From Odiellus spinosus (Eukaryota; Arthropoda; Arachnida; Opiliones; Phalangiidae): DNA of 64,000 nucleotides. Positions 34,709-60,978 of the stretch are shown here, piece after piece; position 1 is the stretch's first letter, and every line of letters starts with the position of its first letter. A program made the translations under genes and the position numbers. The DNA lies in contig OY987225.1 of assembly GCA_963920705.1 (NCBI GenBank), forward strand, positions 33,891,458 to 33,955,457, read 5' to 3'. The notes below the pieces were generated by a model. It was not told where the DNA came from. It did no database searches and saw nothing but the letters and a program-made list of their open reading frames with translations.

Positions 34709-37700
34709 TCATGTTAGATGATTGCATTGGGCGTTGACTTCGTCCGTGCATAATTCCGTTATGTTTTTCTTGGGGTACAAATTATGCGTTTTTTCCAATT
34801 CAAGTAGAAATTCTCTGCAATTTAAAATTAAAACTTTAAAATCCGTTTTGAATTAAACAATTTAATAAGTGTCTCTTTGTCTCTCTGGAAAGATTGAGAA
34901 ATTATCAATCTTTTACAGAACTAAACATTACGTACACGTTGGCGTTTCCGGTACACCACAGTGACGTCACTTAACAATGAATAAAGTAATTGTATGACGT
35001 CACAGTGACTTTTTCAGAACACCGCGAGAGTGGTTCAATGGAATTCGATTTCTCAACCTATCTGATAATTTATTGAACTGTACCACTTACCCCAAGACTC
35101 TCAAGGCTTCTTGGAAATAGTACTTGAAACTTTGTTTCGATTCTTTGGTCATGTGTCCTCTTTCTTCCCTCAGTTGTTCGTTCGTTAAGGCCTGATACTC
35201 CTTCTTAGTGTCCATAAACTCTTCGAACTTGGCCGTGTCCAATTCCGAACCCTTTTGAATCGTAATGTCCTCGTTTCTCGCGCTTCTACCGCCGTAAGGG
35301 TTAACCACGGTCATTCCTCCGCCTTGTCTTCTCAAATTTCCGAAATGGTTGTAACTAGTAATGGGCTTCTTGTCGAAACTCATCACGTTGGGTATCAAAT
35401 GCGACCCCAAAGCTACTGGTTTGTAACGATGGTTCTGGTCGCGATGCGTCGGCGGTAAGACCGGGATGGCCATCTCAGTAGGAGGAAATCGACCGTACGG
35501 TAGATTCGGTAAAGGCGGAACCGGAAGCGGGGACAACGGCGAATTTAACATGAAAGTCGTGATGAGAGCGCCCACGATGGCCGACGTTAGTAGCAAGGCG
35601 GGGGAAGCGCTCCGGAAACTCGAAAACAGGCCAGACACCAAAGCGGGCAATTCTATATCGGAGTTTTAAAAGGACCAATAGGATTCGAGGATCAACCGGA
35701 AGAGGAAATAGATAGAGAGAAAGGGAGAAACAAAACGGAAAAAAAGGGTTGTTAGTTTTTATAATTGGATAATTGGAAATTAATTTTAAATTTAAAACCA
35801 GTTAAGCCTAATTGTACCCCGAAACCATGTACCATAAGCCAACGACGCAAACCAGTTATGGTAGACAGTAGCTTTGATGGTCGCTTATATTCAGTCTGCG
35901 TATAGAAGCCGGAGTTCAGCGCAATTTTTGTATGACCTTATCTAGTTTATGGCGTGTTTCCTTTAATAGATTTCCTGTAGTTTAGTTCTACGCCATGGGG
36001 TCAAAATCAAGGTGTTTTCTTCTCAAGTATCACCCGTGGGCGAAGACAAAACTCCCTTGCAAAATTACCCGTCAAAAAGAATAGGCATAAGTTTAAGTAA
36101 AGTGCTCTTCACTCTCACGTAACCCGTAGAGACTTTTTGTAGGTGATACGTCAAGGCAAAATGCCTTCCGATAAATGAATATTTAAATCCTAATTTTAAA
36201 GTAACCTTTTAATATTTAATTCCATGATGACAAGATAATTAAGACTTTGAATCTGATTTTATATCATTAACATATAATTATTTATTATAAATCAAGGATA
36301 TAGCTTTAGGGATATGTTAAATCTGATAACTCGAGGCCAATATCTATTCCTTCCTTTAAAGGGATAATGAATACTAACCTGACAAAATGTAATATTCAAA
36401 TCGATTTGTAAGAAAAATTACAATCAAATATATTAAGCTAGAAATCGATATTTAACTTACTCTGAATGTAGGCTTAACAAGGATTCATGAAGAGTTTGAA
36501 ATATAGCCGTATCCGCGTCTTACGCTAATTAGAAAAAGCTCGCGCATCTTAAGCCTAGTTTAAAGCGATTTAATACCGGACCGACTAAATATCTAGGTCA
36601 TTTTTAGTCCGATGTATGACGTAGTTTATTTCCGGAACGTAATTAACGATAATTTTCGTACGAAAGATAGTTGACTTGATCGAAGTACTTTTACGAAATT
36701 AACTGCGTGAAAGCGACCTTATCACTCGTGACAGAGTCACTTTAAAAGATTTACAAATGTCCCTTAGTCTTCACGCGTGTTAAGCCTACTTTTTTAACGA
36801 TGAATAATCGATATGAAAAATAAGCTATAGTTCATTATCCCTTTAATAAAATCGTATTAAAAAGCCAATAACTGGATTAAGGTTGGGAGAAATCCGGTTG
36901 AATTGTACTTCCTTATTAAGATTTGGGGAAGTCCGACATTTCCCAACCTTAAAAATAAAAAAAAAAAAAAAAATAGCAGTCAAACGAGGAAAAATTTAAC
37001 TTTAAATCGAAAACTACTTAACTGCGGGATTGATGTCCGCTACAAATTCCCATGACATCCAAATTTTCAAGTTCGCAGAAATATTATATATGTAGTTTAT
37101 TAAAGGGAGGGTGAAAAAGGAAACTCGAGTCTGTTTCTTTAAAGGGAAACTTGGAGCTAAAAATGGAATAGATTTAGAATTTATTTTTGGAATCACCGGA
37201 TGTCAACGAAACGTTTTCGATCATTTTCAAAACATTTTTTAGACAAGTTTGCGAAAGTTTGAATGCCTAAAACCTTGAGCATTAATTTATATTTACAGGG
37301 TTGCCACAGGTCAGTGAAAACAGGGAAAAGTCAGGGAATTTGAAAATGAACCCAAAAAAGTCAGGGAATTTAAAGATATTTTAAAAAGTCAAGGAATTTT
37401 AAGATATTTTAAAAAGTCAGGGAATTTAAAGATATTTTAAAAAGTCAGGGAATTTAAAGATATTTTAAAAAGTCAGGGAATTTAAAGATATTTTAAAAAG
37501 TCAGGGAATTTTAAGATATTTTAAAAAGTCAGGGAATTTTAAGATATTTTAAAAAGTCAGGGAATTTAAAGATATTTTAAAAAGTCACGGAATTTAAAGA
37601 TATTTTAAAAAGTCAGGGAATTTTAAGATATTTTAAAAAGTCAGGGAATTTAAAGATTTTTCAAGAAGCCAGGAAATTACAATCATCTGTAGAAAAGATT

Positions 37701-40700
37701 CTCAGCTGACGGCGTGTCAGTTGTATAGATTAGAACAAAGATACGCTTGCAACAAAGTTTGGCCAATACGATTATATAAAAAATAAAAGCTTAAAAATTG
37801 GGTAGTTATTAGCCGAAACGGTCAGGGAAAAACCTGGAAAAGTCAGGGAATTTGAATCTGAAAAAACTGGCAGATCAAAAACGTGTTTAATAATTGTTTT
37901 GAAAATTGTCGAAAATAATTTCAAATTTTTTTTAGCTCCAAGTTTTCCTTTAATATTAAAATCATTAATCATGATACTAGAGTATCTAATGAAAATCTCC
38001 AACATTACGCGTACGTGTACGTCAAGCGTACATATCGTTATGTTAACTTCACGTAGCCGTACGAGTTCCGCTGATTCTTTCATTTCCTTTTGATTCTCCC
38101 TTTACGTGGTTAGTTAATCCCAATCCTAGTTCGATCTTTAGTTGCCAATATAAAGGTCATTTTTCCCAGACAATTTTAATCCATTTTAACATTAAAACTC
38201 CATACATAATATATATTTTTTTCGTCGTGAGATCGTAGCTTGGTTATCAAGGTGGGCCATTATTTATCTATGATATTATTTTTCTTAGAAATGTAAGGGA
38301 AGCCAGGCTTTGTACTCGTTACAATTTCCCGTTAGAATAAACTCTAATATATTGTAATTGCTTTTTAACGACGAAGTGTCTGCTAGAAGTGGGTTTTTGT
38401 TTTTTTGTTATTATCTAGATCTAGGCTTTTATGGTTCAGGATTCCTCGGGGTCAATATTACCCCCAAGACATTGTAATATAAAAAAAACAACAACTTTAT
38501 TCTTTGTTTCAATCTTGGTAAAGACCTCAAAAACCTCTTGGAAAACCAGTTTTTTTCTATGGTTATTTAGATCCCTTCTAAGGTTGGAATGTTGTTTATT
38601 CTTGGAAATGGGTGTGACGATTTGCAATCATCAAAGTGAGATGGGTTTACCTTTTTACCACAAAAATACTTAAAGGGAGGATGCAACCTAACAACAAGTG
38701 ATTTTTTTATCGATTCCTTATTGTTTAAATAGGCCTAATCCACTATTTAAAAAATTTACAAACAAATATTAAACTAGAAATAAATTTAAAACTTACCCTG
38801 AAAATAGGCTTAGGGGGATTCATGGAGCTCCTGATTTCCTCCCGTGTAAGGTCTAGCGACCAATCGCGCGCGACGTAAGTCTCGTGGAGATCTCGCGTGA
38901 ACGACGGGCCTTTGCTCATTGGTTGCTAGACCTTACACGGACTCAATTCAGGATCTCCATGAGTCCCGCTAAGCCTATTTTCAGGGTAAGTTTTAAATTT
39001 ATTTCTAGTTTAATATTTGTATTGTAAATTTTTCATCGGTGGATTAGGCCTATTTAAACGATAAGGAATCGATAAAAAATCACTTGCAATTAGGTTGCAT
39101 TCTCCCTTTAAGTTTCTAGATTAGGTTAAAAGACCACCTTATCTTTTTGAACCAAATAATAATGCAATAACGTTGTTTTTAGGTTTAGGCCTAATTATAA
39201 AAGATAAGTCTATCTTGTACTGATTTCGAAACTTTTAAATTTAAAACTTTCCATCAAGTTTTGGAAATATCCTGAGCTTCCCGGGAGTATAAGGACTCGC
39301 GACCAATCACATTGATCATGGAGATCCAGCATTCTCCGTATAAGATCCATCGATCAATGTCATTGGTCGCAATTTATTTCTAGTTTAATATCTGTTTGTA
39401 AATTTTTCTACAGTTGGATTGGGCCTTATTAAAACGATAAAGTTTTTAGGTTTCATTATCCCTTTAATTTTAAATTTGGTATTATTTAATTAGTTATATG
39501 ATTTAATTTAAAATAATTGCAGTTTTAGACAGTGTTTTACCCCGTCTTAGTTTTAATTTCAATTCTTAATTAATAATTATATCGTAATTATCATTGAATA
39601 TTTCAATACATTATTGCTATTATTCTAATCACGTAGTAACGCGGATGCTTTAGACACCAATCGAGGAGCCCTACTTTAATTCGTGAGGGCGATATCCTGA
39701 TATTACTCGTTTATCTAAGATGATATCATCAAATATATAAAGGGTGTGGTCACGTGTAAAATGGGTTTAAAGTACTAGGGACTTTCACAAAAGTGACTAA
39801 TTTTTTGTAAATATTATTAAAATCAATCGTTTTTACCATTCAAATTTAAAAATTTTAAAATTATTTTAGTGGCACGCGCTAAGCCTAAATATAATTTAAA
39901 AATTATTTTAGTGGCACGCGCTAAGACTAAATATAATTTAAAAATTATTTTAGTGGCACGCGCTAAGACTAAATATAATTTAAAAATTATTTTAGTGGCA
40001 CGCGCTAAGACTAAATATAATTTAAAAATTATTTTAGTGGCACGCGCTAAGACTAAATATAATTTAAAAATTATTTTAGTGGCACGCGCTAAGACTAAAT
40101 ATAATTTAAAAATTGTTTTAGTGGCGCGCGCTAAGACTAAATAATTTAAAAATAATTTTAATGGCGCGCGCTGAGCCTAAATAGTTTCAAAACGATTTTA
40201 ATGGCGCGCGCTAAGCCTAAATATAATTTAAAAATTATTTTAATGGCACGCGCTGAGCCTAAATTTAATTTAAAAATGATTATATTGTAAATATATAATC
40301 AGGTCAAGGGTATTGTTTTATCTGTGGTGAAAGAATTCAAATAAAACTATTTACTTTAAGAGTCCGTAACCCTTTAATTCCGCTTTCCTAAATTATACAA
40401 TATATTGAAAGTTTTCGCGTGACGTCATAATCTTGTTATTCCCCTCGCGTTGTTTATAATGAAGCTGCAACCTTAGAAGGAATTTAAATTTCCATTGAAA
40501 GATATATTTTTCCCACGGTAATTATTCTCATTCCAAAATTGCAAAGTTTGTAAACATTCCCGTACGCGAACAGTGTTGATAAAACTACTTTTTCCTATGA
40601 GGATTAATATTACGTATCAATCCGCGTAGGTATTGGGTAAATTGCGACACTCGTTCAAACAATAGTAGATTTATATATGTAAATGTTATCTCATTTAATC

Positions 40701-42380
40701 TTTATTAAATCTGTTAAAAACATTTCAAGTCGAAGAACTTGCAAAATAGACCGAACAGTACACTATAGAATAGGTCCTTTATACGCAACCTTGAAAAAAC
40801 TCCGTTTTCAATTATTTACGATGGATAAATGTATCTTTCTAAGACTGCAATTGATTATAGTTCGTTTCACTTTCAATTGACAACTCGTACGAAACTAGAT
40901 TCCTTGGCTTTATCTCTAAATGAAGTAATCTTATAAGTTTAGCTTCGCACACGTTGTCAATTGGAGGTGGAATTGCTCGGATAATCATTGTTTCAGAAAG
41001 ACACAAAAGCTTCTCGGGTCTCTCTCTATGGCACGCAAGGTTAACGCTGTTGAAATGGTCAATTGAGTTGGACCCCACCCACGAGGACAGTTTGAAAGAA
41101 TGGCTTCAACTGACCTTGTAACCATCATTTAAAATTGTTTTGATTTTTATGGCACCCTCGAGAACATGGGACAAATATTTTCAAAACTCCAAGCTCCGTT
41201 CACACTAAGCGTGTATCGAAATCGATTTTAATCGATAAAATTAAATCGATATTTAAATTACTCTGAATCGTGTTAAGTTCGCTGCTCACGCGTTATCTTC
41301 ATAAATCGATTTATTATAAGCTAGCATTTATTTTTAGATTCCCATATTAATTTCCAAGATAATTGTAGATTCCCATATTAATTTCTAAGATATTTGTAGA
41401 TTCCCATATTAATTTCTAAGATATTTGTAGATTCCCATATTAATTTCTAAGATATTTGTAGATTCCCATATTAATTTCCAAGATATTTGTAGATTCCCAT
41501 ATAAAATTCCATAGAAAATTACTTCCCATATAAAATTCCATAGATAATTACTTCCCATATAAAATTCCATAGATAATTACTTCCCATATAAAATTCCATA
41601 GAAAATTACTTCCCATAGAAAATTCCATAGATAATTACTTCCCATAGAAAATTCCATAGATAATTACTTCCCATATAAAATTCCATAGATAATTACTTCC
41701 CATATAAAATTCCATAGATAATTACTTCCCATAGAAAATTCCATAGATAATTACTTCCCATATAAAATTCCATAGATAATTACTTCCCATATAAAATTCC
41801 ATAGATAATTACTTCCCATAGAAAATTCCATAGATAATTACTTCCCATATAAAATTCCATAGATAATTACTTCCCATATAAAATTCCATAGAAAATTACT
41901 TCCCATAGAAAATTCCATAGATAATTACTTCCCATATAAAATTCCATAGATAATTACTTCCCATATAAAATTCCATAGAAAATTACTTCCCATATAAAAT
42001 TCCATAGATAATTACTTCCCATATATAAAATTCCATAGATAATTAAATACCATAGAGATAATTTTGAGATTCCCATATAAATCCCCATAGAAAATTTAGA
42101 TAAATTTAATTTTAAATTCAAAATGATCAGAATCTTGACCAATGTCAAACTCCAATCTCTGAACAATACGAACCCAAATATCAATTAAATTAAGTTAAAT
42201 ACTTAAAAAACCAAACTTACGTTTAGTTAAATCTTCTTTGATGACTTTTAAATCGTGTTCAGGGTCTTTCTTTACTTCTTCGACGACAATTCCGTCATCT
42301 TCGCCATAAACTAAACTAACGGCTAGAAAAACTGTAACTAAAAGTAACAATATTACTTTACGACTCATTAATTTAACCAT
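34709..42380 (-). CDS. Secreted, proline-rich DM4/DM12-like protein (three exons, first exon distant)
   Basis: Model: exon 1 42380-42221 (signal peptide, VILLLLVTVFLAVSLVYG), exon 2 35652-35091, exon 3 34814-34709; phases 1 and 2; 275 residues. Exon 2 starts with a hydrophobic segment (LLLTSAIVGALITTFML), then a Pro-rich run (PLSPLPVPPLPNLPYG) and a charged helical end (KKEYQALTNEQLREERG). Exon 3, after acceptor TTTTAAATTGCAG, ends with LCTDEVNAQC. This C-x7-C near the C-terminus parallels the C-x6-C end of its neighbours, and its length (106 nt) equals exon 3 of the 53-kb gene. The C-x5-C-E motif of the others is missing. The 6.6-kb first intron is full of repeats; exon 1 could belong to the 33-kb gene instead, because both joins keep phase. 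Confidence 0.5.
36355..36846. mobile_element. TTAA-flanked MITE, family B, copy 2
   Basis: The left end TTTAAAGGGATAATGAA is inverted at the right end as TTCATTATCCCTTTAA. TTAA flanks both AGGGATAATG...CATTATCCCT termini. The interior (~470 bp) is non-coding and shares stretches with family C (GCTAGAAATCGATATTTAAC, CTGAATGTAGGCTTAA). Confidence 0.8.
37325..37665. repeat. 28-bp tandem repeat
   Basis: About twelve units of AAAAAGTCAGGGAATTTAAA followed by GATATTTT. An isolated related stretch recurs at about 37835-37855. Confidence 0.93.
38666..39113. mobile_element. Foldback MITE, family C, copy 2 (nearly perfect hairpin)
   Basis: Arms of roughly 200 bp. The left end ACTTAAAGGGAGGATGCAAC mirrors the right end TTGCATTCTCCCTTTAAGT, and TTAA sits at both borders. 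Inner arms include GGATTAGGCCTATTTAAACG-type segments. The centre carries GTCTAGCGACCAATCGCGCG and its partner. Same family as 18112-18499. Non-coding. Confidence 0.92.
39296..39450. mobile_element. Degenerate half copy of family C
   Basis: It shares the central CGCGACCAATCACATTGATC hairpin and the right arm TTTATTTCTAGTTTAATATC...GTTGGATTGGGCC with 38666-39113, but lacks most of the left arm. Confidence 0.65.
39854..40280. repeat. 42-bp minisatellite with AAGCCTAA/AAGACTAA core
   Basis: Ten units of TTTTAGTGGCACGCGCTAAG plus ACTAAATATAATTTAAAAATTA. The 42-bp period is a multiple of three, so a repeating open frame of 91 codons appears; it lacks any start context or spliced partner. Terminal units carry AAGCCTAA while the inner ones carry AAGACTAA, so homogenisation has spread a variant. 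Confidence 0.93.
41336..41500. repeat. 31-bp tandem repeat
   Basis: About five units of GATATTTGTAGATTCCCATA plus TTAATTTCTAA. It runs directly into the 29-bp array that follows, which shares the TTCCCATAT block, so the second array probably arose from the first. Confidence 0.9.
41490..42050. repeat. 29-bp tandem repeat
   Basis: About nineteen units of CTTCCCATATAAAATTCCAT plus AGATAATTA, with TATAAAA/TAGAAAA and AGATAATT/AGAAAATT variants interspersed. It ends about 170 bp from the 3' end of the signal-peptide exon at 42221. Confidence 0.93.
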
Positions 42381-42820
42381 GATTCCAAATATTGATTAAT
42401 TAAAATTAATCCTTAATTAAATTAAACTATATAAATTCTTTCTAACGGTAAATTAGTTTATCGCCTTTCTCCGACTTGATCCGCGTTACGTTTGAGAAAA
42501 AGTCAAATTGGCTTCGTTTTACCGGCAGAATTTCATCTCTCTATTTTGTCCGTCTGTCATCTCACTCTTAATTTGCATTACGTACAAACCTACGCCTTCT
42601 TTAACTCTTAATACGTTATAATAGAAATAAGGAGGAATGTATCTTTATGCGTAATGAATACTGAGATTGATAAAAAAACACTCAAATGTCTCGTGGAGGA
42701 AACAAATATTTCATACCGGTTATAAGTTGCTTTCTTAATGCTATAGAGTTAATATGATACGAGTAAGTCTCGCGCTTATACCAGTTTCAATGTAACCTAA
42801 TACTGTGGGAAGTTTCTGAG

Positions 42821-43023
42821 TTTAAAGGGATAATGAAGTGTGAATTTCTATTAATTTTTTATCGTTAAAAATGAGGCTATCACGAACTCCAAATGGAAAT
42901 TGAGTAGCATTTTCAGAAAGATCATTAAAAATGGTTCACTAAAAGGACTTAATCCAGGGGTATACAATTTACAACATGGCCTATGATAATAATAACCACG
43001 TAAGCTTTCATTATCCCTTTTTA
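42821..43023. mobile_element. TTAA-flanked MITE, family B, copy 1
   Basis: The left end TTTAAAGGGATAATGAAG is inverted at the right as CTTTCATTATCCCTTTTTAA. The interior contains TATCACGAACTCCAAATGG and AAATTGAGTAGCATTTTCAG, which are also recognisable in the element at 50900-51016. Confidence 0.8.
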
Positions 43024-44279
43024 ATAGTAGTCATCGTTCTATACCTACAATAGTGGTCTAGAGTTAATTTGATACATTTTTAAATCTCGCGTGAAAGTCT
43101 CGCGCGGATGAAAATTATTAACTTTGTTTCAAAGTCACCCGAGACTAGAAGATTAGTAATAATAAGGTATCTCGTAGCTTCCGTAATAGTATCGAGTAAA
43201 GTTGAATATGATAAAGTCTCGTGCGTGGAAAATGTTTATAAATGTATATAGGATATCAATGTTACCTAAGACTCGATAGTTAGTAATAATAAGGGGATGT
43301 ATATCGTTCGTAATGGTATAGAGTTAATATGATAATTTTTACAACGTGGAAGATGATACGTAAATAGTTTCAAAGTTACCTAAAGATTTGAGAGATAAAT
43401 ATTAAAATGAGTTGTATAAATTCAGTATTACTCTAGAGTTAAGTTGATTCTTAGTGAGGAAATGCGTGTGGTTGATTTTTTGGTTATTAAAGGAAGACAG
43501 ACAACCGTAATTTACGCGATTAATTAATGGTAATTTACGGTTTTCTCTGTAAAATTACCGTAATTTAAAAATATATTTTTGGATTGAAAATGAAGAAATT
43601 GCTAAAACAGGTCAAAGTTCAACATTTTAAATTGAACTTGACTATTGTATATTTCGTGTCTGTCTCCCTTTAAAGTCGTTGTTTTAACGTTAGAGTAGGT
43701 ACCCGTTTATGCGGAAAAGACAAGATCAAGTTCAGTTCAAGGGCTTCTAATTATTTAACTTGGAACAAGGAAATGACTTTTTTTACTTCTCCTTACCTTC
43801 TCCGGCGAGACACAAATTTCCCGTTATGGTAAAAAGCAACACCCTATTCTATCCGATAGTTCATTCCACGCGGAGTTCATTGACAGACCCACCAAGCCTT
43901 CTCCGTCTCCCCTCTATCTTTAAATACATATCCTTACTATTTAAGTACTTGCTAATTGTTTGTTTAAAGTCTAAGAGTGGATTTCGGCGCCTTAATCGAG
44001 TCAAGGTTCTTTGAAGAGTATTATTATTAGCGCTATTAACAATTATCAATAGACATTTAAACCGGTTGGAATATTTTTGTTTGACACTTCAAAAGGCGGT
44101 ATATAAGAGTTTCAAATAGCTATATAATTGTTTTATTTGCTTATTGAAGTAAAAATAAATATCGTGAGAAAATACACGTTCTCAAGAGAGAGTTATACCT
44201 AGTTATAGTTCACGATTATTATAGTTTGTTAGGTTATTACTAAATATTGAAATCTACCTTCGAATTAAGATTAACAAAT

Positions 44280-45400
44280 TTATTTATTTACCGTATAATT
44301 TATTTTGTACTTTATTAATTTCTTTATATATTTATTTATTAATTTATCTATCTATTTATTTATTTATTTATCTATTTTTCTATTAATTTCCCTTTTTCTT
44401 TATTAATTTCTTTTTATTAATTTCTCTATTTATTTTTCTATTTATTTATTAATTTCTCTATTTATTTATTAATTTCTCTATTTATTTATTAATTTCTCTA
44501 TTTATTAATTTCTCTATTTATTTATTAATTTCTCTATTTATTTATTAATTTCTCTATTTATTTATTAATTTCTCTATTTATTTATTAATTTCTCTATTTA
44601 TTTATTAATTTCTCTATTTATTTTTCTATTAATTTATTTTTCATTTAATTTCTCTATTTATTTATTAATTTCTCTATTTATTTATTAATTTCTCTATTTA
44701 TTTATTAATTTCTCTATTTATTTATTAATTTCTCTATTTATTTATTTTCTCTATTTATTTATTAATTTCTCTATTTATTTATTAATTTCTCTATTTATTT
44801 ATTAATTTCTCTATTTATTTATTAATTTCTCTATTTATTTATTAATTTCTCTATTTATTTATTAATTTCTCTATTTATTTATTAATTTCTCTATTTATTT
44901 ATTTATTTCTCTATTTATTTATTTATTTCTCTATTTATTTATTTCTCTATTTATTTATTAATCTCTCTATTTATTTATTAATTTCTCTCTATTTATTTAT
45001 TAATTTCTCTCTATTTATTTATTAATTTCTCTCTATTTATTTATTAATTTCTCTCTATTTATTTATTAATTTCTCTCTATTTATTTATTAATTTCTCTCT
45101 ATTTATTTATTAATTTCTCTCTATTTATTTATTAATTTCTCTCTATTTATTTATTAATTTCTCTATTTATTTATTAATTTCTCTATTTATTTATTAATTT
45201 CTATTTATTTTTCTATTAATTTCTCTTTTTCTTTATTAATTTTTCTTTTTCTTTATTAATTTTTTTCTTTATTAATTTTTCTTTATTAATTTCTCTATTT
45301 ATTTTTCTATTAATTTTTTTTTAATTTCTCTTTCTATTAATTTCTCTATTTATTAATTTATCAATTTATTTATTAATCTATTTATCTATTTAATTTATTT
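44280..45400. repeat. Large ~21-bp AT minisatellite
   Basis: More than forty units of TTTATTTATTAATTTCTCTA (with T), followed by a block where the unit becomes CTCTCTATTTATTTATTAAT. It degenerates into TTTCTTTATTAATTT at the right end. Strongly strand-asymmetric: almost no G on the + strand. Confidence 0.95.
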
Positions 45401-46077
45401 TATTAGTAAATAGTAAAATAGTTCGAAATATTTCTTATAGTCACTCGCATAATTATAATGATTATAAATTATGATAAAATATTCTGCGTGAAATTTTAAT
45501 AACGAGTCCTATGAGAATTGATAATGAGAATAATGAAATCTTAAATATTTCTTATTCTATCAAATTATTCTTTGTAAATTACTAAATTCCATATTCTTCC
45601 GCATGATTATATAAACTTAGTTTCCAAAAGTATCGGTCTTTCGAGAGCGTTGACATTAAACAAGGGGGAAAACATCCATAAACTAATAACTTTCGAGAGA
45701 CAGGATTTTTTTGGGATGTGGTCTATACGTGGCTAAAGGGTTTATGAAGTTATTACGATGGCTCTTTAAACCCCCCTTTTGCCGTCTTTTCCGGGAAGGG
45801 GGGGGGGACATTATGGTTTTTTGTTCCGAAAGGGAGATGATTCGGAAATAATGATAGATTTTCATCTTCACGCTCGGTGATTACGATTTACGAGTTTAAT
45901 TGGCCGAGGAAAAAAGTGTATTTTTGGTTTCGTTTCAACTCTCTTTTTTATTTTATTGAAAATGATAATTTAAATATATAGAATAATTATTAAAGTAGTG
46001 ACGCAACTGTCGACACTATTCGGGGCTAATTTCGCGAATTTAATCACGAAAAATTGAAAAAAATCGCTAATACCGCC

Positions 46078-46570: not shown

Positions 46571-46671
46571 GTATAAGGCTGTTTTTACAAAGTGTGACGT
46601 TGGTTTTACTTTTCGTGTACCTGTTAACGTTCCCCACGGACAGACGTACCTAGATTATTATATATTTTGAT

Positions 46672-46838
46672 GAATAACAAAACGTGGCGTTCATAAACGT
46701 TCGCTAACGGGCAAACAGTGCGTACAAAAGTATTAACTAACAAAAATATTGCATCTGTGGATAGATAATAGGCAGTCCTAATTTTACCTGAACTGTTTTC
46801 CTTTAGAGGACGCTTATGAACACCAGATTTTGTTATTT
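46672..46838. mobile_element. Foldback element F, copy 2
   Basis: The left arm ACGTGGCGTTCATAAACGTT is mirrored by GAGGACGCTTATGAACACCA on the right, bordered by ATAACAAAA and TTTTGTTAT. The same structure occurs at 51306-51501. Confidence 0.8.
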
Positions 46839-46949
46839 AACTATCTTAATTAACAATATTTAAAGTTAATATACACGTATAAATTCTGAACCTTATTAAA
46901 GTATAATCGTAATTAATTTAATTAAAAAATTCGTTATTAATAATTTAAT

Positions 46950-49120: not shown

Positions 49121-49277
49121 AGATACGTAGCCAGGTCGATTTCTTGTTAATCGATGTCATATTTTTGACTTTCTGACGACATGGGATTTAAACCATTGGG
49201 CCATCATCCCCATTATAGATCTTCCATGGTATTTAACACGAAAAGGAGAGGTATTTTTAGTCTAGTTACCATTTGGA

Positions 49278-49701: not shown

Positions 49702-49979
49702 CGTATAAACTCCGAGCTTCTCTGATCGCTCAATTTCATGTCCGCAAAATGGTCTCGATTGCCGTTAAAAATCTCGACATTAACTCTTAGGTCTTTCACT
49801 TTTTACGCTATTAAATATCTAAGGTCAAAGGTTATTCGACTCTCTTTAATTTCTTCGCGACTCAATTTACTCGTAGTTGAATGTTCCATCCATTTAATTT
49901 GAGTGTTTGGTTTTCAAAAGCTTTTATGTCTCTTAAAATTGGCGGGAAACCTTTTTACATCCAAGGGTGTTTATTTAAC

Positions 49980-50271
49980 CAAGAAGGATCAGATAAGGAG
50001 AGGAAAAGTGGGAACGGCGCGGCTCCTACTGCGTCGGCCTAAACTCCCACTCTGGGAGAACGGGGGACAGACGGGGGTAGAGATGCTTCGTGGTAAATTG
50101 TTGTCACGTGGGTAAAACGAATCCTTTATGAGACGCGCTAGCTAGCGACCACGTGACAACAGTTTACCTCGGGAATTTCCTATCCCCCCTTTCCACCCGA
50201 GTGGGAGGTTGGCTCTTCTCTCTCTAACTCAACGCAGCCCCACTTTTCCTCTCCTTATCTGATCCTTCTTG
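49980..50271. mobile_element. Foldback MITE, family D, hAT-like
   Basis: The terminal inverted repeat CAAGAAGGATCAGATAAGGA (left) extends to over 30 bp and is mirrored at the right, ending ATCTGATCCTTCTTG. A 7-bp direct repeat, ATTTAAC, flanks the element (49973-49979 and 50272-50278), in the size range of hAT target duplications. The interior includes GTAAATTGTTGTCACGTGG and its inverted partner. It sits between two divergent genes. Confidence 0.88.
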
Positions 50272-50411
50272 ATTTAACTGTAATGTTTTTATCTAAAATA
50301 TTTTTTTAAAATTTAGGCATTTTTTTTTAAATAACGGACTTTTGGAATTAAGATCTCATTTTCGGATTAAATTCATTAGCGTCTTGTCGCGTTATTCAAT
50401 TAAGCTACAAA

Positions 50412-51766
50412 ATGTCATTCCGTTGTTTTAGATTAGTATTTATTTTCGCGTTTATAACTTTGCCTCAATTAATTACGTCTCAAAATGTGGTATCGGGACC
50501 CCAAAATCCTCATGTCGTTCCTCAAAACCCGGGAATGCAATTTAACCCTCCTCAAAACCAACAGTTCGGTTTTCAAAATCCTGGCCAACAATTTAATGTT
50601 CCACAAATGTCCAACTTCAACCCGCAACAGCAAGTTCAATTTCAACAACAGTCACCGTGGGCTGGTTTCACTAACATCTTGTCTCAAATCCCGATGGGTA
50701 CTTTAATGCAAATGGTCATATCTTTCGTGCAAAATACGCCCATCATGTACGTCCTCAACAGTATTTTTGGCAAATCCTTCGTCATTTTTCAAATTTTAAG
50801 CGTTTCTTACTCGGTTTTCGCGGCAATATCCTTACTGTTTCCTTCCGCTGGTCAGTACTTGCAACAGCAAGTGGGGTAAGTACAAGTCCGTGTAATTAAA
50901 GTAAAGCTGTCACGAATTTCAAATCGAAATTGAGTAGAATTTTAGAAAAGATCTAAAAGTGATTTTTTTGTAAAAGTACTTAAGACATTTAAAAATGAAA
51001 AAGTGACAGCTTCGCTTTAAAATCCAATTTTTTTCTTGTCTAATTTAAATTTAATTACAGGTCGATAACAAACGCTATTGTCCCTACGATGTACAATTTA
51101 CCAAATACTATCAGATCGGCTCAACCATTTTCCGGCGCCATGGATATGGTTGGAATTAATCAACCCGATTGTCAACTCAGGGCATCGTGCGAGGCTGGAC
51201 AACTCGTGTTCCATAATTTTCCCAATATGGCTCAAATTTTAAATTTATTGGGGTATTTTTTTATTTCAATTCTCACCTAGGAGTGTTAATGGATAAAGAT
51301 GAATTTAACGAATCCTGGCGTTCACAAACGTCCTCTAACGTCCAAAATAGTGCGGGCAAAAGTAGAAGATCTAACAAAACCACGTGATCTTCTGCCTTTT
51401 CTTTATCCATACCAGATACACTCATTTTGTAATTGTTCTACTTTTGACTTCGCGCGGTTTTTGCCGTTAGAGGACGCTTATGAACGCCAGATTTCGTTAT
51501 TCGGCTATATCTAGTTAAGATGTAGGTGTCCATTGATAAAATTCTTAGCTCGCAAGCATCGTAGGATGGTAAATTGAATACATATCCTTGGTTATTTCAA
51601 TAGAAATGTTTTACCAATTGAAGACAAGTACAACCAACCGTTTTTACGAGGAACTTCGAACGTAAACTGCGCAGCCGCATTCCGTACTTGTCCCCAATCA
51701 CCATTTCAAACTTTATTTAATTTTTCTTCTAATTTTGATCACAATCAAGTCCCAAGAAGGAAGTAG
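50412..51766 (+). CDS. Secreted four-cysteine DM4/DM12-like protein (three exons, 272 aa)
   Basis: Exons 50412-50875, 51061-51252 and 51604-51766, both junctions in phase 2. Signal peptide LVFIFAFITLPQLITSQ follows the ATG at 50412. Next is a Gln/Asn/Pro-rich region (PQNPGMQFNPPQNQQFG) and a long hydrophobic stretch (MGTLMQMVISFVQNTPIM, SYSVFAAISLLF). Exon 2 carries C-x5-C-E (DCQLRASCEAGQLVF); exon 3 carries C-x6-C-P (NCAAAFRTCPQSPF). The C-x-LRA-x-CEA and C-x6-CP-x-S blocks and their order match what I know of the arthropod DM4/DM12 family, whose role is unknown. The acceptor of exon 3 follows TTTCAATAG. A TTAA-flanked MITE lies in intron 1 and a foldback in intron 2. It is the only plus-strand member of the cluster. 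Confidence 0.72.
50900..51016. mobile_element. TTAA-flanked small MITE in intron
   Basis: TTAA|AGTAAAGCTGTCAC on the left and GTGACAGCTTCGCT|TTAA on the right are inverted ends. The interior (TTTCAAATCGAAATTGAG, AGAATTTTAGAAAAGATC) resembles that of the family B copy at 42821. It lies in intron 1 of the gene 50412-51766. Confidence 0.75.
51306..51501. mobile_element. Foldback element F, copy 1
   Basis: The left arm TGGCGTTCACAAACGTCCTC is mirrored by GAGGACGCTTATGAACGCCA. The outer AACGAAT / ATTTCGTT also match. It lies in intron 2 of the gene 50412-51766. Sister copy at 46672-46838. Confidence 0.85.
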
Positions 51767-52389
51767 TTTAGGAACTGTTAAGGTTCAGAATCAAAGCTTA
51801 TTTTATTTTTATCAATCAGGTCTGTGTTGTACTTGTAAGAATGCTATGTAATGATGTTTTTTCCAAAATGTGTCGATTTTAAATTAAAGAATAAAGAGTC
51901 TAATTACCACTTTAATATTATTCACTGATTTACAAAAATGTTATTTTAACATCGTCACGATGAAGTCTAAGTTTTGTTTTGTTGCAGGCTTACACTGTTT
52001 TTAATGTTTTAAACTACACTTTTATTTTATTTTTTGGCGAACAATTTTTACAGTGGATACCGAAATTTTTAAAATTAACTTTTGATAAAAGGTCAATTAC
52101 ATTATGAACTTCGCTTTTGAAATTTCAAATATTAACCTCTCCTAAAAGGTTATTTCTATTTAAACTTATCGTGTATTTCAAAAGCTTAAGCTACGACATC
52201 ACGGAATTTTGGCGAATTCCATTGCGCCACACTTGGAATGAGTTTTTAAACTTGGTGAAAATTTAATCTTTCTATCAGTTATATTTTGAAAACTTGAATA
52301 ATTAATGTAATTTTTCTATTGCAATCCCACAAATAAAATCTAAATTAAAGCAATATAAAATATATACCCGGAGAATTTAATCTTTTTCA

Positions 52390-52744
52390 GTGGACCATAC
52401 CAGAAGTCGATGAAACCCTCCTTTGAAGTCTACTACTCCAATGTTCCATATAACGCTCCTCTCTGTATGGGTAAAATTCCCAATTTTAAGAGTTAGAAGG
52501 GGTCCTACTTCATCCCCCCTGTCTACGAAAAATTGGAAATTCTCTCCCTCCACAAACGACGACGTTTTTGGAAGAACTCCGAGGCTGCTAGAGATATTCG
52601 CTCGACGAACTCACGCTCCGAAAACATCTACCGTTAGGAGGCGTGCGAATCGCGACTTTTGAGAATAACCCATACAGAGAGGGGTAGACAAGACCAGGGA
52701 GTAATTGACTTCAAAGGAGGGTTTCATCGGCTTCTGACCATACT
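52390..52744. mobile_element. Foldback element E
   Basis: Arms of about 40 bp: ACCAGAAGTCGATGAAACCC / CTCCTTTGAAGTC on the left against GACTTCAAAGGAGGGTTTCA / TCGGCTTCTGACCAT on the right. The interior has a further inverted pair (CCATATAACG...CTCTCTGTATGGG against CCCATACAGAGAGG). Non-coding. It lies between the convergent genes ending 51766 and 53045. Confidence 0.88.
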
Positions 52745-53044
52745 AAATATTTCACTGGTACTTTTGACATGGCAAAGTATTTGGTTACCTTTCTTCGCCT
52801 ATTTAAAAATAATACCCTTACCAAGGTCCTCCTTGTTACCTTGGATCATGGACCCAGTTTCAGTGATTTATACAAAATAATTCCAAAAAATTGTTTAAAG
52901 TCAATCACATTTTATTGTTTATGTACCTCAAGTACATAAAGATAATATTCAAACATAAAATAATATTTACAAAAAAATATCACACCGTACGCGTATTTGT
53001 TTAACCGGAGTTGTCAACTAAATATAATTGTTTTCTGTTTTGTT

Positions 53045-53805
53045 TTATATTTGCAGAGGACTGATCTTGCAACTTGGATACAAGTCATCGCAATCCAACA
53101 GCCTAGCTCCACGGATAACTGGTTCGGTATAACGATGGTTAACCTGACCACTGTAATTAGGCGTAATTAATGACCTCATCAAGCTGAAAAATGAATCCGT
53201 CAAGTACTTACCTAAAAAGTCTCATACCCCTGGCGGCGTATGGATATTCTTTAGCGACGTAATGTCCAACTTCGCAAGCGGCTTTGTCACGACATTCTTT
53301 GTCGATCCTCATGTAGTCGAAGGCCATTTCAACAGGGTCGTACGAATTTACGTTGCTGGAAACTTGATCCATGATACTGCTTTCCAAAGATCTCATGGTC
53401 GAAGCGATACCCGAGTTAGGGAAAATGAAGCCCAAGGTCATAGATATCATGTACAAAGCGCCGATGACCACCATGACTGGTTTCAACTTTATCAAGAGCG
53501 CGTAACCGATGGCCGCCAATTTAGCGGTTGTTAATGTAGCTGCTAGTTTGGCTAGAGACGTCTTGGTTAAGAAACTGGACAACAGTGATAGAATCGACAC
53601 CATGTCGAGGGAACGGGAGTCAAGTGGCCAAGATATGTCCGCTTCTGGAATGGTAAAAAAAAATTATTTGATTTATTTTAATATTAAAAACTTCGTTGCT
53701 TAAGGTCTTACCATCTTGTCGCTTGCTACTTCCAGGTCCCGCTTTGGACGCGTTGAAACAAACCAGCATAATTATGACGGTACGAAAAAGAGTTGAGGAA
53801 TGCAT
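53045..53805 (-). CDS. Secreted four-cysteine DM4/DM12-like protein (three exons, 210 aa)
   Basis: Exons 53805-53712, 53644-53212 and 53150-53045, phases 1 and 2. Exon 1 codes a signal peptide (LFRTVIIMLVCFNASKA). Exon 2 has a small-residue-rich amphipathic stretch (KLAATLTTAKLAAIGYALL), a hydrophobic helix (VMVVIGALYMISMTLGFIF), and then the C-x5-C-E block ECRDKAACEVGHYV. Exon 3, after acceptor CTAATTACAG, carries LDCDDLYPSCKISPL, a C-x6-C block as in the neighbours. The cysteine spacing, exon phases and length of the last exon (106 nt) tie it to the genes at 35, 50 and 60 kb. It is convergent with the gene at 50.4 kb. Function unknown; likely extracellular or membrane-anchored. Confidence 0.72.
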
Positions 53806-56800
53806 ATCTCGGCTTGAGAATTTTCGATTTATGAACGACGTTGGAAACTTGTGGGTAAGCTTGAACTTTTGATATTAGTCGCTGAAGAGGTGTGATTGAG
53901 TTAGATTAACATGAACCCCATTTTATACTTGGGATTAAATTTAATATTTTTGGGAAATTGACGGAAGGGGGAGGAAACATTTTACCTTTGCCCCCTATCG
54001 ATAAAATTATATTTGTTTAATTAAAACGGAAGCAATTAAGAGAAAGGTGGTAGACGAAAAAGTGGGTGTGAAATATCACTTAGTAGACTTACTCGATTTC
54101 TTTGATCTATATTGGTTTAGATTTAATTTAATTTATCAAACCACATATAATTTTTTACACAAGATTTTTTTTGCTGTTGTTTAGTTTACTGTCAGGGTCC
54201 GTTTTCTTCGGTTGGGACTGAAACTTATCATTTAGGCGTGGTTATTGTAACTGTAATATGTCGGTAAATTTGCCGTTTTGGCGCTAAGGTAGCGGGGGAA
54301 TTTTCGAAGCTCTTCTTGTCCAAAGTTCCAAACCAGAGTATGCGGACCCTTTTTACGTCAAGGAATTAAGCTGTGCGGATTTTTTGTCGCGTTTAATTAC
54401 GAGTTTTGTTTGCGTTTGTGATATGAAATTTGCGTTGGAAAATAGGGTAAGCTTATAATTTGGTTAATGATCGTTTAATTTTAGTCTATGAATGTTTGAG
54501 CTTTAAACTCTGACCAAGGCTTAGCAAATGTTTAAGCAAAAGAAACGCATAATTTACCGCATTTGATGAATAACACTATTTAGGTAACATGTATTATAAA
54601 TTCAAGGCTTAGCTATTTCAATACCAAGATAATTTAATAATGTTAATTAATGTTTTAATTTTAATCCAATATCAATGATAACTACCACAAATTATTTATT
54701 TCTAAACAACTTAAGTATTCCCAATTTCCCGCCAAAACTAAACCTTATATTTATAATGAATAAAAAATCATCAGTCTAATAAATTAAATTTAACTAGTAA
54801 TTACACGGTATTACATAACGTTGTAAATGATATAAATTTCGTAATAGGAACCACCCCCACGTGTTTTGGTATTTTTTATAAATTAGATGGAAATTTACCA
54901 ATATTTTCTGAAATAGCGATAGATAGAGGTCTCCACTATCCAGTAAATATAAAGTTTTTCAATGAAAACAAACAGTCGCGTTGAAAACAGAGGATAATAA
55001 AAAACCCTCCCAATTTAAACCTAAAAGTCTCCTTTATTCCAATGAGCTTGTAACTTTGATAAAAAATTAATCTGTATTTCAAATTAGATTATTTTTGGCA
55101 GCGAATTTAAATACATGTGTTTCGTATGAACCTTATCTAGCGCAGTACAGTCTAGTTAAATTAGTTAATTTGCTAAAAAAACGTACAAACAAAAATTACA
55201 ATCAGTTCTTAAAATATAAATTTTTATTTAAATTTAAAATAGTGTAATTTTATTACGCAATAATTGGCAATAATTTTCAAGGACGCCGATAAAATTAAAT
55301 TAACATCAGGATATAGATAGTTCTACAACCCTAGGCGTTAATTTTTTTGGTTGGGAGCCTAGTTTTTTATTGTCATTATCTAGGGAGATTATTCTATTTT
55401 ATACAAGATAATAATTATACTCGCGTTACAATAAGGGATCCGTTTATCAAATGAGGTGATGCTAAATAATGCTCTCCTAATAAATTACAATTAAATTAAA
55501 ATTAAATATAATCTCGACCAAGTCTTATTTATCTTGAAAGTTAGCCGCTGCTAATATCAATTTTAGAATCACTGAAATAAAATCAAAAAGAATAATGTTT
55601 AAGATTAATTACTAATTATTTAATAATTAGCTTCTAAGTTCATTACCCCCAAAATAATTAATTTAAAATATGTGTAAATTGTGTAAATTTCGATATTTTT
55701 TCGATTTAAAGGGACAATGAAATTTAACGTTTTTATCGATATAGGTATGTTAATTTGCAGTTAATTAACCAAGGTTTCTCGTTAGTTTACAGTTAATTAA
55801 CCTAGGTTTCTCGTTAATTTACAGTTAACAGGTTTTTAGTTAATTTACAGTTAATTAGCAAATGCTTCTCGTTAATTTACAGTTAAGTTCTAATTGTTTT
55901 CACTAATTCTATCCCCTTTTGTAAACTGATAAACTTAAAAAAATACATTATTCGTCTTCATTATCCCTTTAATCTATTATATCTGAACTTCAAAGCTCAG
56001 ACAATTTTTTCCCTATGGGGTTTTGATAATTGTACTACATTGCAAAACGCCATACGATTCAGTTCCAGCCTTGGAATGAACTAAAATTTCTATTGTAAAT
56101 CTAATACTAGTATGGCAATTAGTTTTCATCCAAGTTTGCGAACATATATAGTTGAAATATTCCCAAAAACTCTGTTATGAATAATTAAAAATCTTCGGTA
56201 TAGGTGCCCACTCGAAAAATGTCAACTTGAAATTATACGTAGGTGTTCGGGTCAAATAATGACATTATCCTGATAATTTAAAAGGTTCAAACTTCATGGT
56301 ACTTATTAGGTTACTTCTAAGGTCAAGGTCAAATTATAAATGCGAAATATATCAGAATTAGCATAAAAGCTTCGATTTTTTTTTAAACTCAAAGTAACTA
56401 GGCCGGATTTTCTTCATTGTAGACACTCAACCTGACTCGATTCGTGCCTTGTCAAATTGATTTCGCGCTAAACTCACTAATTTAATCACAGGAAATTGAT
56501 TACTTTTAATTTTCATATTCTCAGTTACAATAACGAAATAGATTTACCCAATACCCAGTGAGGAAAATTCGCCTAATTTGGTCAAAAATGGTTCAAATTT
56601 CAAGCGGAATTTGACCAATTAGGCCAAAATTGAAATGTTTTTCGTCCACTTCTGCTGAATTCAGATTATTTCATTTGGTCTATTTGGTCTAATTCTGTGG
56701 AAATTTTATAATTGGAACTTTTTCATTCGTTATTGTAACGGGAGCTGTTTGAAATTAAAAGTAAAACCAACGTCACGCGTATGATAAGTCAGCTTCGCGA

Positions 56801-56847
56801 TTTTTTCTAATTCCTTTAAAATCAAAAGTAAATGAGAAGTGTACTAC
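53806..56847. other. AT-rich interval, possibly with the last exon of the 56.8-kb gene
   Basis: No complete gene was seen. A candidate terminal exon for the gene starting at 57437 is 55571-55541 (-): strong acceptor TTTTATTTCAG, phase 2, reading DSKIDISSG then stop. Weaker candidates exist near 56690 and 56740. The rest is AT-rich, with a family B MITE at 55705-55972. Confidence 0.35.
55705..55972. mobile_element. TTAA-flanked MITE, family B, copy 3, with internal tandem repeat
   Basis: TTTAAAGGGACAATGAAAT at the left and TTCATTATCCCTTTAA at the right are inverted ends with TTAA at both borders. Between 55750 and 55885 there are four ~31-bp units of GTTAATTTACAGTTAATTAA plus CCTAGGTTTCTC. 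Confidence 0.82.
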
Positions 56848-57437
56848 CTTTTTTGTCTGGTGTCTCTGGGAGTCCTTTTTGCGTACCTTTCCAACATGGT
56901 TTCGACCAGACACAGTACCGGGTTTCGCGATTGATCGCATTCGATTAAACTTCGACCACTAAACGTTTTACTCGAAGAATACGTATTAATATCGCCGGTC
57001 GATCTTTTTAATCGATTATTATTACTATTATCGCGAACTAATAAGGAAGAAATTAAATTTTTAACGTTAGTTTTCCAAGTATCCGGTAACGATAATAATC
57101 GATCGTTATCATCCAACGATCTTTTCGATCCGTCACTACCGAACATTTCTTTCAACGATAATTTCATGAAATATTCCATGATTAATCGAGTCATTTTTAC
57201 GAACAAAACGTCCCATTCGGCTTTCTCGAATAATCGATTAATTAATCCCATGGTATTGATTAACATCACTTGTCGACCTTGTCTAGTTAACGATCGATTA
57301 TCGTTCGGTATCGTTATCGATCGATTAATCGAATAATTTCTCGATAAAGCGGGAAAACCGTCAACCGCGTTAATAGTAAATAAAATTAGCGCGAGAAAAA
57401 ACGCGCCAAAAATGCGCGCGAGATTTTGACACCGCAT
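56848..57437 (-). CDS. Secreted protein, probable divergent member of the cysteine-pair cluster (last exon unresolved)
   Basis: Exon 57437-56848, with ATG and signal peptide (IFGAFFLALILFTINAVDG). It stays open for 196 codons and ends at donor AAAAG|GTAGTA in phase 2, the same phase in which exon 2 ends in the neighbours. Near the end is ECDQSRNPVLCLVETML, a C-x8-C pair followed by acidic residues at the position where neighbours have C-x5-C-E. The middle part is helical and charged with basic sites (GSKRSLDD, RLKRSTGD). The CDS is rich in ATCGATTA-like codon runs, unlike its neighbours. The terminal exon is uncertain; if the donor is skipped the frame ends three bases on at TAG. Family assignment is inference from position, phase and the Cys pair. 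Confidence 0.6.
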
Positions 57438-59379
57438 ATCCGAATGACGTTTCTTCTATAGTATAGGATCCGAAAAATCGAGTTAGGCTTAATGAATATG
57501 CAAATTTCTCGTCGTTAGACAGATTCCGGGCTAAAAAAGTTCACCGTTGATCACACCCACGCGCGATATAACTCGGTTTCGACGTTTTCGAAGCTCGGTG
57601 TCTTAATAAATAACATCTTTTTCGGAAGAGGAGTTCATTTTAGTAAAAATAACGAATTAGGCTTAACGCGTCGGGGAAAAACCCCGCTGTAACCCGGATA
57701 GAAAAATTCGTGATTCTTATTTCTCGATTTTGATTCTCGGGCGACGCCATTCTGAATAAAAGAAATCATTGACAAAACCTAATTTATAATATATTACTGT
57801 TATTATTATTAAAATTTCCTCCTTATTTCTTAGTACGCGAGCTATAGTTTACGCTCTTCATTATTCTACGACTCCCAGAGTTTTAATACACGAAGTATTT
57901 TTCTGGTTTTAAAGATCTAAACTTTATTGAAAAGTAGAACGTATACTTTTAGTTTTTTGGGCAAGAAAAAGAGGGCTAATCTGGCTCGGAGATGCCCCAA
58001 AGCGGTTCTCCCTTATCGTTGCCTGGTGATTTTTCTCGTTAAAAGTATTTTGGAAACGAGTTCCGTAGTGACATAACTCTTTAGGGTAAAGTTTTGGCGT
58101 TTCTTTCTTGTTGAAATCGGTTGAAATTTAGGTAAACCATACAACAAGTTGGTTTTCGAGGGATAATTACGTCTCAGTTTTGAATAAAAACTAATTTTTT
58201 AAAATATCTTTGTCTCTTTGAAGACGTTTAGAATGGAACCAAAATTAATTTACTCCTAAGTCATTGGGTGAGGTCAGAGAAGGTTATGAGTGATGGTATT
58301 TGAAACTGCGGGGTCACGAAGTCCAGGTAATAGTCAAATAATTTGAAAATTGATCAAAAAGTCCAGGGAAAAATCAAATAATTTGAAAATTGATCAAAAA
58401 GTCCAGGGAAAAATCAAATAATTTGAAAATTGATCAAAAAGTCCAGGGAAAAATCAAATAATTTGTAAGTTGCTCAAGAAGGCGCCTAGAATGATAGTAA
58501 TTAGGTGATACGTCTGACGCGCTAAACCATTCTAATACTTGTGGAAGAAGACGTTAGCTTTCAGGGAGTGACTAAATTTTGACATTTCACTCGACTTATT
58601 TAGTTCGAATTAAAAAAAAACAAATTATTTGCCCGAGGTTTAAGATATTGTGGCGAAAGACAAGCCGTTATATTTTTGAGTCCTGTTTTATTTGAGCCCA
58701 CCCAATAATTATGGAATACTCCAATTTACATACGAAATTTAATAATACCTTCTAAATGTTTATCTAGACCTTGTGGGAAAGCCCTCCAGTAATTTCACAC
58801 TTATTTGTATATAACAGGATGTCGAAAAACATTTAGTTTATATCATTCAAAATGGTAACACGTTAATGATAATAATATAAGCAACGTTAATTCTAGTGAT
58901 AAGCTAAGCCTTATTTTGAATTGAAAATATTGAGATTTATGTCTAATTCATGACCCCCAAGACCTTAGGAAAATACCAGAAAAACTCGCGTAATTAAAGG
59001 GAAACTTTGAGCTAAAAATGGAACAGCTTTTCAATTTATTTTAAAACCTAAATATGAGTATAAGTTCTAGCCAATCATATCACTTCAGCCTTCAATAGTG
59101 CTTGTAATATCCAAATATTAAATGAACGCTCAAGCTTCTTTTTAACTGATACTAAAAACTTGTAGAAATTTAAAATGAAGACAAAATTATTAATGAATTA
59201 AAATTAACAAACTTAACCCTAAATAGCGAGGTGTAAAATTGTTTAAAATATAATTTAAATTAAAAGCTTGGAAAAGGTTATATTTCAATCCAAATACGAG
59301 GTATTCCTTTTACAAATTAAGGCTTATTGTATTTATAATGATATCGATGTCGTGTTTAATTTTAAAATAAATTAATTCC
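57438..59379. other. Intergenic region
   Basis: Includes the promoter side of the gene starting at 57437, CpG-containing DNA to about 57700, a 40-bp tandem array at 58331-58470 and AT-rich DNA. No exon is supported. Confidence 0.5.
58331..58470. repeat. 40-bp tandem repeat
   Basis: Three to four units of CAAATAATTTGAAAATTGAT plus CAAAAAGTCCAGGGAAAAAT, nearly identical to each other. Confidence 0.92.
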
Positions 59380-59384
59380 AAAAA
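59380..59384 (-). terminator. Pol III terminator of tRNA-Phe
   Basis: Five T residues on the minus strand, about ten bases after the 3' end of the tRNA gene. Confidence 0.8.
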
Positions 59385-59393
59385 TTCAATTCC

Positions 59394-59466
59394 TGCCGAA
59401 ACCCGGGATCGAACCAGGGACCTTTAGATCTTCAGTCTAACGCTCTCCCAACTGAGCTATTTCGGC
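59394..59466 (-). tRNA. tRNA-Phe (anticodon GAA)
   Basis: 73 bases including the discriminator A, no intron. The acceptor stem GCCGAAA/TTTCGGC pairs perfectly. The D arm is GCTC..GAGC and the anticodon arm TTAGA-CTGAAGA-TCTAA places GAA at the anticodon. The T arm is CCTGG-TTCGATC-CCGGG. Box A (TAGCTCAGTTGG) and box B (GGTTCGATCCC) are canonical. No CCA is encoded, as expected in a nuclear gene. Confidence 0.98.
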
Positions 59467-59874
59467 GATGTCTTCTCCCTACCTAGTAGCTCTTGTACGC
59501 AAACTCTAGCGATGCGCCGGTTTCTCTCTTCAATGATTTACGAGTTTGCGTGGAGGGGAGATAACGTTACGTGTTTTACGTAATAAAACAGGTGTTAACC
59601 CTCCCATTTCCTCCCCGGAACAGCTGGGAGGATGAGAGCCAATCAATAGAGTGCGCGAGAGATAACGGGATTCTTACTAGGCATAGATCAGTGTTAACGG
59701 GACTCTTACTAGATCAGTGTCTTTTTCTGTCAGGAAAAAATAAAAAATAACATTCAAAACACTGACTTACTAAATTAAACCTTTATTACAAGAATTAATC
59801 TACAGTATAAAACGAGTATAAATTGTAGAAATAAATTAATTTACATAGGATATTGAAACAATTCGGTATTATAT

Positions 59875-60978
59875 TTAACTTAATCCGATTGATTTAAGTA
59901 AAGTTTGTCCCAAACTTAGTGGGCAGTGAACTTGTAAAGCTTTGCACGTGTTTTTCTGCAAAGCCCACCATACGGCGTCTTCGTATTTTTCCATTCCCGG
60001 TATTTTGTTGCTAAAAATAATTAATATTAATTAAAATTAAGCCTAACTTAACTGAGCGTTGATTTGGGGGGGGAGGGGCTTCTTTTCTAGCTTAGCAGAC
60101 GACATTGACCATAACAAATTGTACAGTGAAAGCTAGGCTGTGTGCGTAAGGGAAGATGATTTTAAAGGGGAAAGTTCTAGAGCAGATAGGGCCTTTAAAG
60201 TAGGTTTCAAACTTCTCGTCTTACCTTAGACTCTGTAGTACGACTTTAGGCATTCCAGTTTTACTTAATAACTGCTCCAATTCGCAAACGACTCTTTTGC
60301 GGCAGTTTAAGTTATCAACTTGCAAGTACTTAAAGGTAGCCTCCGGATAGTCGGTAGATCTTAAGGAGGAGACGATTCTGTCGAAGTGGGGCAGCCCGAA
60401 GGAGATACCGTTCCTTCTAAACGGTGGTTGTTGAGGCCCACCCGGAGGTCCTCCACCAGCTTGGTGGGCAGCCGCAGCTTGGGCGTTTTGTACGCTGAGA
60501 GGGGGGACTTCCAAGGGTCCGAACAGATGCCCGTATTGACGGTTGAAGGCGGGGTCAACCACATTTTGAAATACTGTCGTCATCAAGGCGTACATTAGGT
60601 AACCTCCACCCACCTGTAAATTTCGGGTTAAATAAATCAATCTTTCGTTTACGAAGAACGCGTACGCGTACGTGAAGATAGACTTACCGCGGCTAGAACT
60701 CCAGTGGCGGTAGACATGAGTCCTTGGGCGGCTCCTAGGGCTGTTAGAGCCCCCAATGCCCCTTGTCTGTTTCCGGGTCCTTTATGTTTGGCGGGTTCCC
60801 GACTAGCCTTCGATTCGATCTCGTAGCTAGCTAGGTTAGTCGCGTTGAGGAACGTCTCATTTTGAGCTTCCGTTGATGTCGCTGTTTTGTTGACACTAAT
60901 AGTTTCGTGATCCGCATTCTGACCCTCGATCAAGTATAGCGTATTCAATACCAAAACTAATAACACCAACTTCTTCAT
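59875..60978 (-). CDS. Secreted four-cysteine DM4/DM12-like protein (three exons, 271 aa)
   Basis: Exons 60978-60688, 60613-60225 and 60010-59875; phases 0 and 2. The ATG at 60978 opens signal peptide KKLVLLVLVLNTLYLIEG. The next part has N-glycosylation-like sequons (NKT, NET, NAT). Exon 1 ends in a small-residue hydrophobic stretch (GALGALTALGAAQGLMST) that continues into exon 2 (VGGGYLMYALMTTVFQNVV). Exon 2 then has an Ala/Gly/Pro/Gln-rich loop and the C-x5-C-E block NCRKRVVCELEQLL. Exon 3 carries NTCKALQVHCPLSLGQTLLK, a C-x6-C-P-x-S block. Cysteine spacing, order and phase-2 last junction match the genes at 50.4 and 53.0 kb. A family A element lies in intron 2. Function unknown; expected at the cell surface or secreted. 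Confidence 0.72.
60079..60200 (-). mobile_element. Family A element, copy 4 (inverted, in intron)
   Basis: Reverse orientation: TCTAGCTTAGCAGACGACAT, GTACAGTGAAAGCTAGGCTG, CGTAAGGGAAGATGATTTTA and CTAGAGCAGATAGGGCCTTT correspond block by block to copies 1-3. It lies in intron 2 of the gene 59875-60978. Confidence 0.85.

Follow-up and report, generated by a model that had tools for sequence, protein, structure and literature searches.

Three neighboring genes of Odiellus spinosus probably encode secreted four-cysteine proteins of the DM4/DM12 family

Results

Three neighboring genes in a 64,000-nucleotide stretch of Odiellus spinosus DNA (the window) probably encode secreted proteins that end in four cysteines, and these are new, clustered members of the known, little-studied DM4/DM12 family. 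Judging from the family and from the neighbors, we read the genes as insect-type. The first-pass annotation of this DNA had observed the three genes well and had over-extended the family to two others. We call the three genes A, B and C, and the remaining genes and open reading frames of interest D to I (Table 1). On the strength of the sequence comparisons described below, we are confident that A, B and C are paralogues with the DM4/DM12 affiliation and protein anatomy proposed here.

Table 1. Positions of genes, open frames and a repeat element within the window.
Feature	Position	Strand	Length (aa)	Exons or parts	Basis and remarks
Gene A	50412-51766	+	272	exons 50412-50875, 51061-51252, 51604-51766	splice enumeration, splice contexts, DM4_12 match above gathering score
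Gene B	53805-53045	-	210	exons 53805-53712, 53644-53212, 53150-53045	DM4_12 match of trimmed joined segment, BLASTP to A
Gene C	60978-59875	-	271	exons 60978-60688, 60613-60225, 60010-59875	DM4_12 match of trimmed joined segment, BLASTP to A and B
Gene D	42380-34709	-	275	exons 42380-42221, 35652-35091, 34814-34709	model from splice enumeration
Gene E	57437-56844	-	197	open frame	possible phase-2 exon end 56848
Gene F	34025-32797	-		exon 34025-33107, last exon 32899-32797	C-x12-C in last exon; absent from the first-pass annotation
Frame G	47975-46950	-	341	four module copies, picked by eye	hydrophobic start
Frame H	48717-48334	-		two module copies	
Frame I	49701-49453	-		one module copy	hydrophobic start; possible donor 49510
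Inverted-repeat, MITE-like element	51306-51499	+		arms 51306-51354, 51451-51499	inside intron 2 of A; repeat search

Gene models of A, B and C

When the three genes were rebuilt from the DNA, the gene models, cysteine spacings and phase-2 second junctions that had been proposed for them were all recovered, and the stops at 51766, 53045 and 59875 proved correct. The layout is most easily followed in protein A, where a hydrophobic N-terminus is followed by a Q/P/N-rich stretch, a hydrophobic segment at about residues 111-146, the motif C-x5-C-E and finally C-x6-C-P-x-S. Protein B carries its hydrophobic segment at about 65-108 and protein C a weaker one at about 94-112. In all three genes C-x5-C-E lies 19-20 residues upstream of a phase-2 intron, and C-x6-C-x-x-S is supplied by a short last exon; the distance from the last exon-2 cysteine to the exon end is 20 residues in A, 20 in B and 19 in C. 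The four cysteines are residues 192, 198, 241 and 248 of A, 149, 155, 196 and 203 of B, and 201, 207, 249 and 256 of C. As the first introns differ in phase (2 in A, 1 in B, 0 in C; also 1 in D), A, B and C have only the second junction in common, which is of phase 2 in all of them and in D. Every intron of A, B and C is of the GT-AG type; the second donor of A (GTATTT) is weak, and those of B and C are consensus-like. An AATAAA or ATTAAA hexamer follows the stop codon by 87-128 nt in the three genes, or by 87-147 nt when D is included, which is weak evidence because the DNA is AT-rich.

Signal peptides had been assigned to all three proteins. With hydrophobicity as the sole predictor, a hydrophobic 19-mer was present at the N-terminus of A and C, and also of D and E. 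Protein B fell below the threshold, though its residues 6-17 resemble a short signal core.

Twelve windows simulated with a Markov-2 model served to gauge how often the motifs arise by chance. C-x5-C-E with a phase-2 donor no more than 40 residues away was found three times in the window, in exactly A, B and C, versus zero times in the 12 simulated windows.

The MITE-like element inside the second intron of A has a relative at 46661-46844. Elsewhere in the window, a tandem repeat at 16907-17676 leaves several reading frames open on both strands, and a tRNA-Phe (GAA) gene lies at 59394-59466 on the minus strand. Two plus-strand frames have clear Pfam domains: an EF-hand frame at 7518-8003 (8.3e-13), presumably a PP2A B'' regulatory subunit, and a WWE-domain frame at 20535-21068 (8.5e-23), which we take to belong to a ubiquitin ligase of the TRIP12 type. 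A frame at 26527-26949, considered as the HECT end of this ligase, had no Pfam match.

Assignment of A, B and C to the DM4/DM12 family

The Pfam DM4_12 domain (PF07841; profile length 86, curated cut-off 22 bits) is described in PMC12825958 as having four conserved cysteines near the C-terminus and as being of unknown function. Four such cysteines are present in A, B and C, each with its hydrophobic segment ahead of the domain. Protein A scored above the cut-off, with 23.7 bits for the whole protein and 27.0 bits after trimming (E 7.6e-6, profile positions 10-86 of 86). The trimmed, joined segments of B (16.1 bits, E 0.019, positions 4-86 of 86, or 83 positions) and C (15.7 bits, E 0.025, positions 10-86 of 86, or 77 positions) scored below it, and these two E-values are somewhat flattering, since each gene's last exon was originally picked for its cysteine pattern. 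For one of the two trimmed segments DM4_12 was the sole Pfam match and for the other the best.

When whole proteins were scanned, DM4_12 was found in A only, one of nine proteins, and B and C had no match; when C-terminal segments were trimmed, it was found in three of five (A, B and C, not D or E). The separate exon halves of B and C gave no match to the profile (0 of 4), so that both exons had to be joined, and the exon-2 half of A reached 20.4 bits while its exon-3 half had no match. Shuffles of B and C in which the cysteines were held fixed did not match DM4_12 either (0 of 10).

The three proteins are also related to one another. In a database of the nine window proteins, BLASTP aligned A with B at E 2.4e-12 over 130 residues, starting from within the hydrophobic segment, A with C at E 2.0e-4 and B with C at E 6.2e-5, and the A-B and A-C alignments span both exons. 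These values indicate that the three genes are paralogous; the earlier view that such proteins barely align outside their cysteine blocks was too strong. We assign B and C to the family on their homology to A, not on the Pfam cut-off. Compared with DM4/DM12 proteins generally, A, B and C share the four C-terminal cysteines and a nearly full-length profile match, but B and C lie under the curated cut-off. The DM4/DM12 label given by the first-pass annotation, which had proposed a PF07841 search with the joined proteins as its check, is supported for A, above 22 bits; for B and C it is favored by sub-cut-off matches of the trimmed segments only; and it is not supported for D and E, neither of which matched whole or trimmed.

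A sequence search of the PDB with A gave a best E of 0.025, to a designed repeat protein, and one with a five-row alignment a best E of 0.82; neither search found a relative. Viral contigs scanned with the A-B-C alignment yielded 20 pattern matches, none of which was confirmed. PMC5583336 was discarded as a source on the family name, its one match to the name being a microscope part.

Genes D, E and F

A wider reading unites A to F in a single diverged family, one cysteine pair having been lost or altered in each of D, E and F. Each of these three proteins has one pair. Protein D has a hydrophobic N-terminus, a hydrophobic segment at 66-91 and C-x7-C as its only pair; E has a hydrophobic N-terminus, basic sites, C-x8-C and a further cysteine at residue 3. 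Several features speak for common descent: all the genes lie within one stretch, A, C, D and E begin with a hydrophobic stretch, and in D, F and A the phase-2 junction directly follows L-G. In addition, E has a possible phase-2 exon end at 56848, which its last cysteine precedes by 20 residues, a distance comparable to those in A, B and C. D and F are further alike in having E-x-L-L after the junction, and the last intron of F, of phase 2, has an apparent GC donor (GGG/GCAAGT) in the same context as the GT donor of D (GGG/GTAAGT).

Sequence comparison points the other way. Neither a DM4/DM12 profile match nor a set of four cysteines was found in D, E or F; F had no match in Pfam at all. BLASTP of D, E and F against A, B and C gave only E-values above 0.5, and among D, E and F none was better than 0.68 (nine-protein database). 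An hhalign comparison of a D+F profile with A-B-C returned a probability of 0.2%, although just the junction residues were aligned. We also counted exon pairs with a looser pattern that covers D as well (C-x5-13-C, GT donor, intron of at most 500 nt). The window contained nine of them, versus 13 in the 12 simulated windows, about one per simulated window. Of the nine, A, B and C account for one each and D for two; among the other four, three involve the exon-2 cysteines of A and C. By this measure D is not clearly above chance, although the control overstates chance for D because it takes in more arrangements than that of D. Taken with the lack of a hydrophobic 19-mer in F and the failure to find a first exon of its own, these results make a single family of A to F doubtful in our judgement, and we retain the DM4/DM12 family of A, B and C. 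What had been reported of D's structure, namely the phase-2 junction, the C-x7-C last exon and the stop at 34709, was confirmed, as was C-x8-C in E; it is their membership in DM4/DM12 that was not borne out.

Within about 3 kb of E, considering phase 2 only, no last exon with C-x5-9-C was found; relaxing the spacing to C-x3-16-C gave two weak candidates, neither convincing. The open frame of E may simply end near 56848 without a further exon. When the minus strand from 34.0 to 50 kb was scanned for a first exon of F, it yielded just the first exon of D and a start at 43011 that lacks a donor. Nearer starts were poorly hydrophobic or had no phase-1 donor, and the sole strongly hydrophobic start with a phase-1 donor upstream of F is D's. 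Between basic sites, protein F contains amphipathic repeats that are nearly identical: SLLATRILRIFDLVGL occurs twice, and a third copy is looser. By analogy the arrangement looks like a precursor that would be cut into peptides. The first intron of D (35653-42220) contains tandem repeats whose units measure 28, 29, 31 and 42 nt.

Frames G, H and I

Three frames located between D and A carry a loose module centered on Y-x-[DE], after which comes a hydrophobic run; we recognized seven copies of the module by eye. Only the Y is invariant; P-x-x-V-P ends four of the seven copies, including two of the four in G. In the nine-protein window database, BLASTP related H to I at E 1.7e-4, G to I at E 6.9e-4 and G to H at 0.049. 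None of the seven modules matched Pfam. To us the module is reminiscent of the front part of what we take to be typical DM4/DM12 proteins. One might imagine 32.8-61 kb as a single old cluster of secreted proteins in which the DM4/DM12 halves come apart, with A to C keeping the four-cysteine end, D to F having lost or changed one pair, G to I being tandem front-part modules cut by basic sites, and D and F perhaps sharing a leader exon. We regard this as improbable.

Last exons of B and C, and the Osiris family

Both B and C end in a short exon, and such exons could be chance open frames, the real genes ending elsewhere. The 12 simulated windows contained 62 C-x6-C frames behind a pyrimidine-rich acceptor, and acceptors leading to C-x6-C-x-x-S numbered six there and six in the window. 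Five of the six in the window fall in genes A to C, three of them nested within B; the sixth lies at 14829 on the plus strand. This explanation is nonetheless very improbable, given that the DM4_12 match of B and C requires both exons, that alignments to A cross both exons, and that in both genes the second intron begins with a donor resembling the consensus.

It is hardly credible that the proteins instead belong to the Osiris family (DUF1676, PF07898), an insect family that is likewise clustered and whose members have a hydrophobic segment and a pair of cysteines: the genes here are clustered, their products are probably secreted and have a hydrophobic middle, and PMC12825958 reports DM4_12 in planthopper Osiris17 and Osiris24, but DUF1676 was absent at E up to 10 from all nine proteins, A, B and C among them, and the cysteine pairs are C-terminal here whereas the same paper places the Osiris pair near the N-terminus, at the opposite end of the protein.

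Discussion

For A, B and C as DM4/DM12 paralogues, a common anatomy can be proposed. Judging from their hydrophobicity, the proteins probably enter the secretory pathway, and the hydrophobic segment may be embedded in a membrane or lie against it. Each would end in a small four-cysteine domain, lumenal or extracellular. Because this domain is coded across the phase-2 intron, successive exons would supply the first and the second cysteine pair, and the four cysteines would form two disulfides inside the C-terminal domain. Splicing in vivo and the function of the signal peptides we infer. An AlphaFold prediction of exon 2 of B together with exon 2 of C and of A was all helix and unusable (mean pLDDT 41.9); with confidence at that level, its placement of the first cysteine pair of B in a helix carries no weight.

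As to role, A, B and C may conceivably serve secreting epithelia, in cuticle or another apical matrix, an analogy that we offer tentatively. It draws on the presence of DM4_12 in the two planthopper Osiris proteins and on the action of Osiris genes in cuticle and tracheal matrix, as given in PMC12825958 and PMC9870157; the link is a co-occurrence of domains in a paper, external to the data of the A-C locus.

A compact cluster whose last exons are short and easily missed suggests that genes of this kind can be mis-annotated in automatic gene calls, and A, B and C provide a set of paralogues for joint knock-down.
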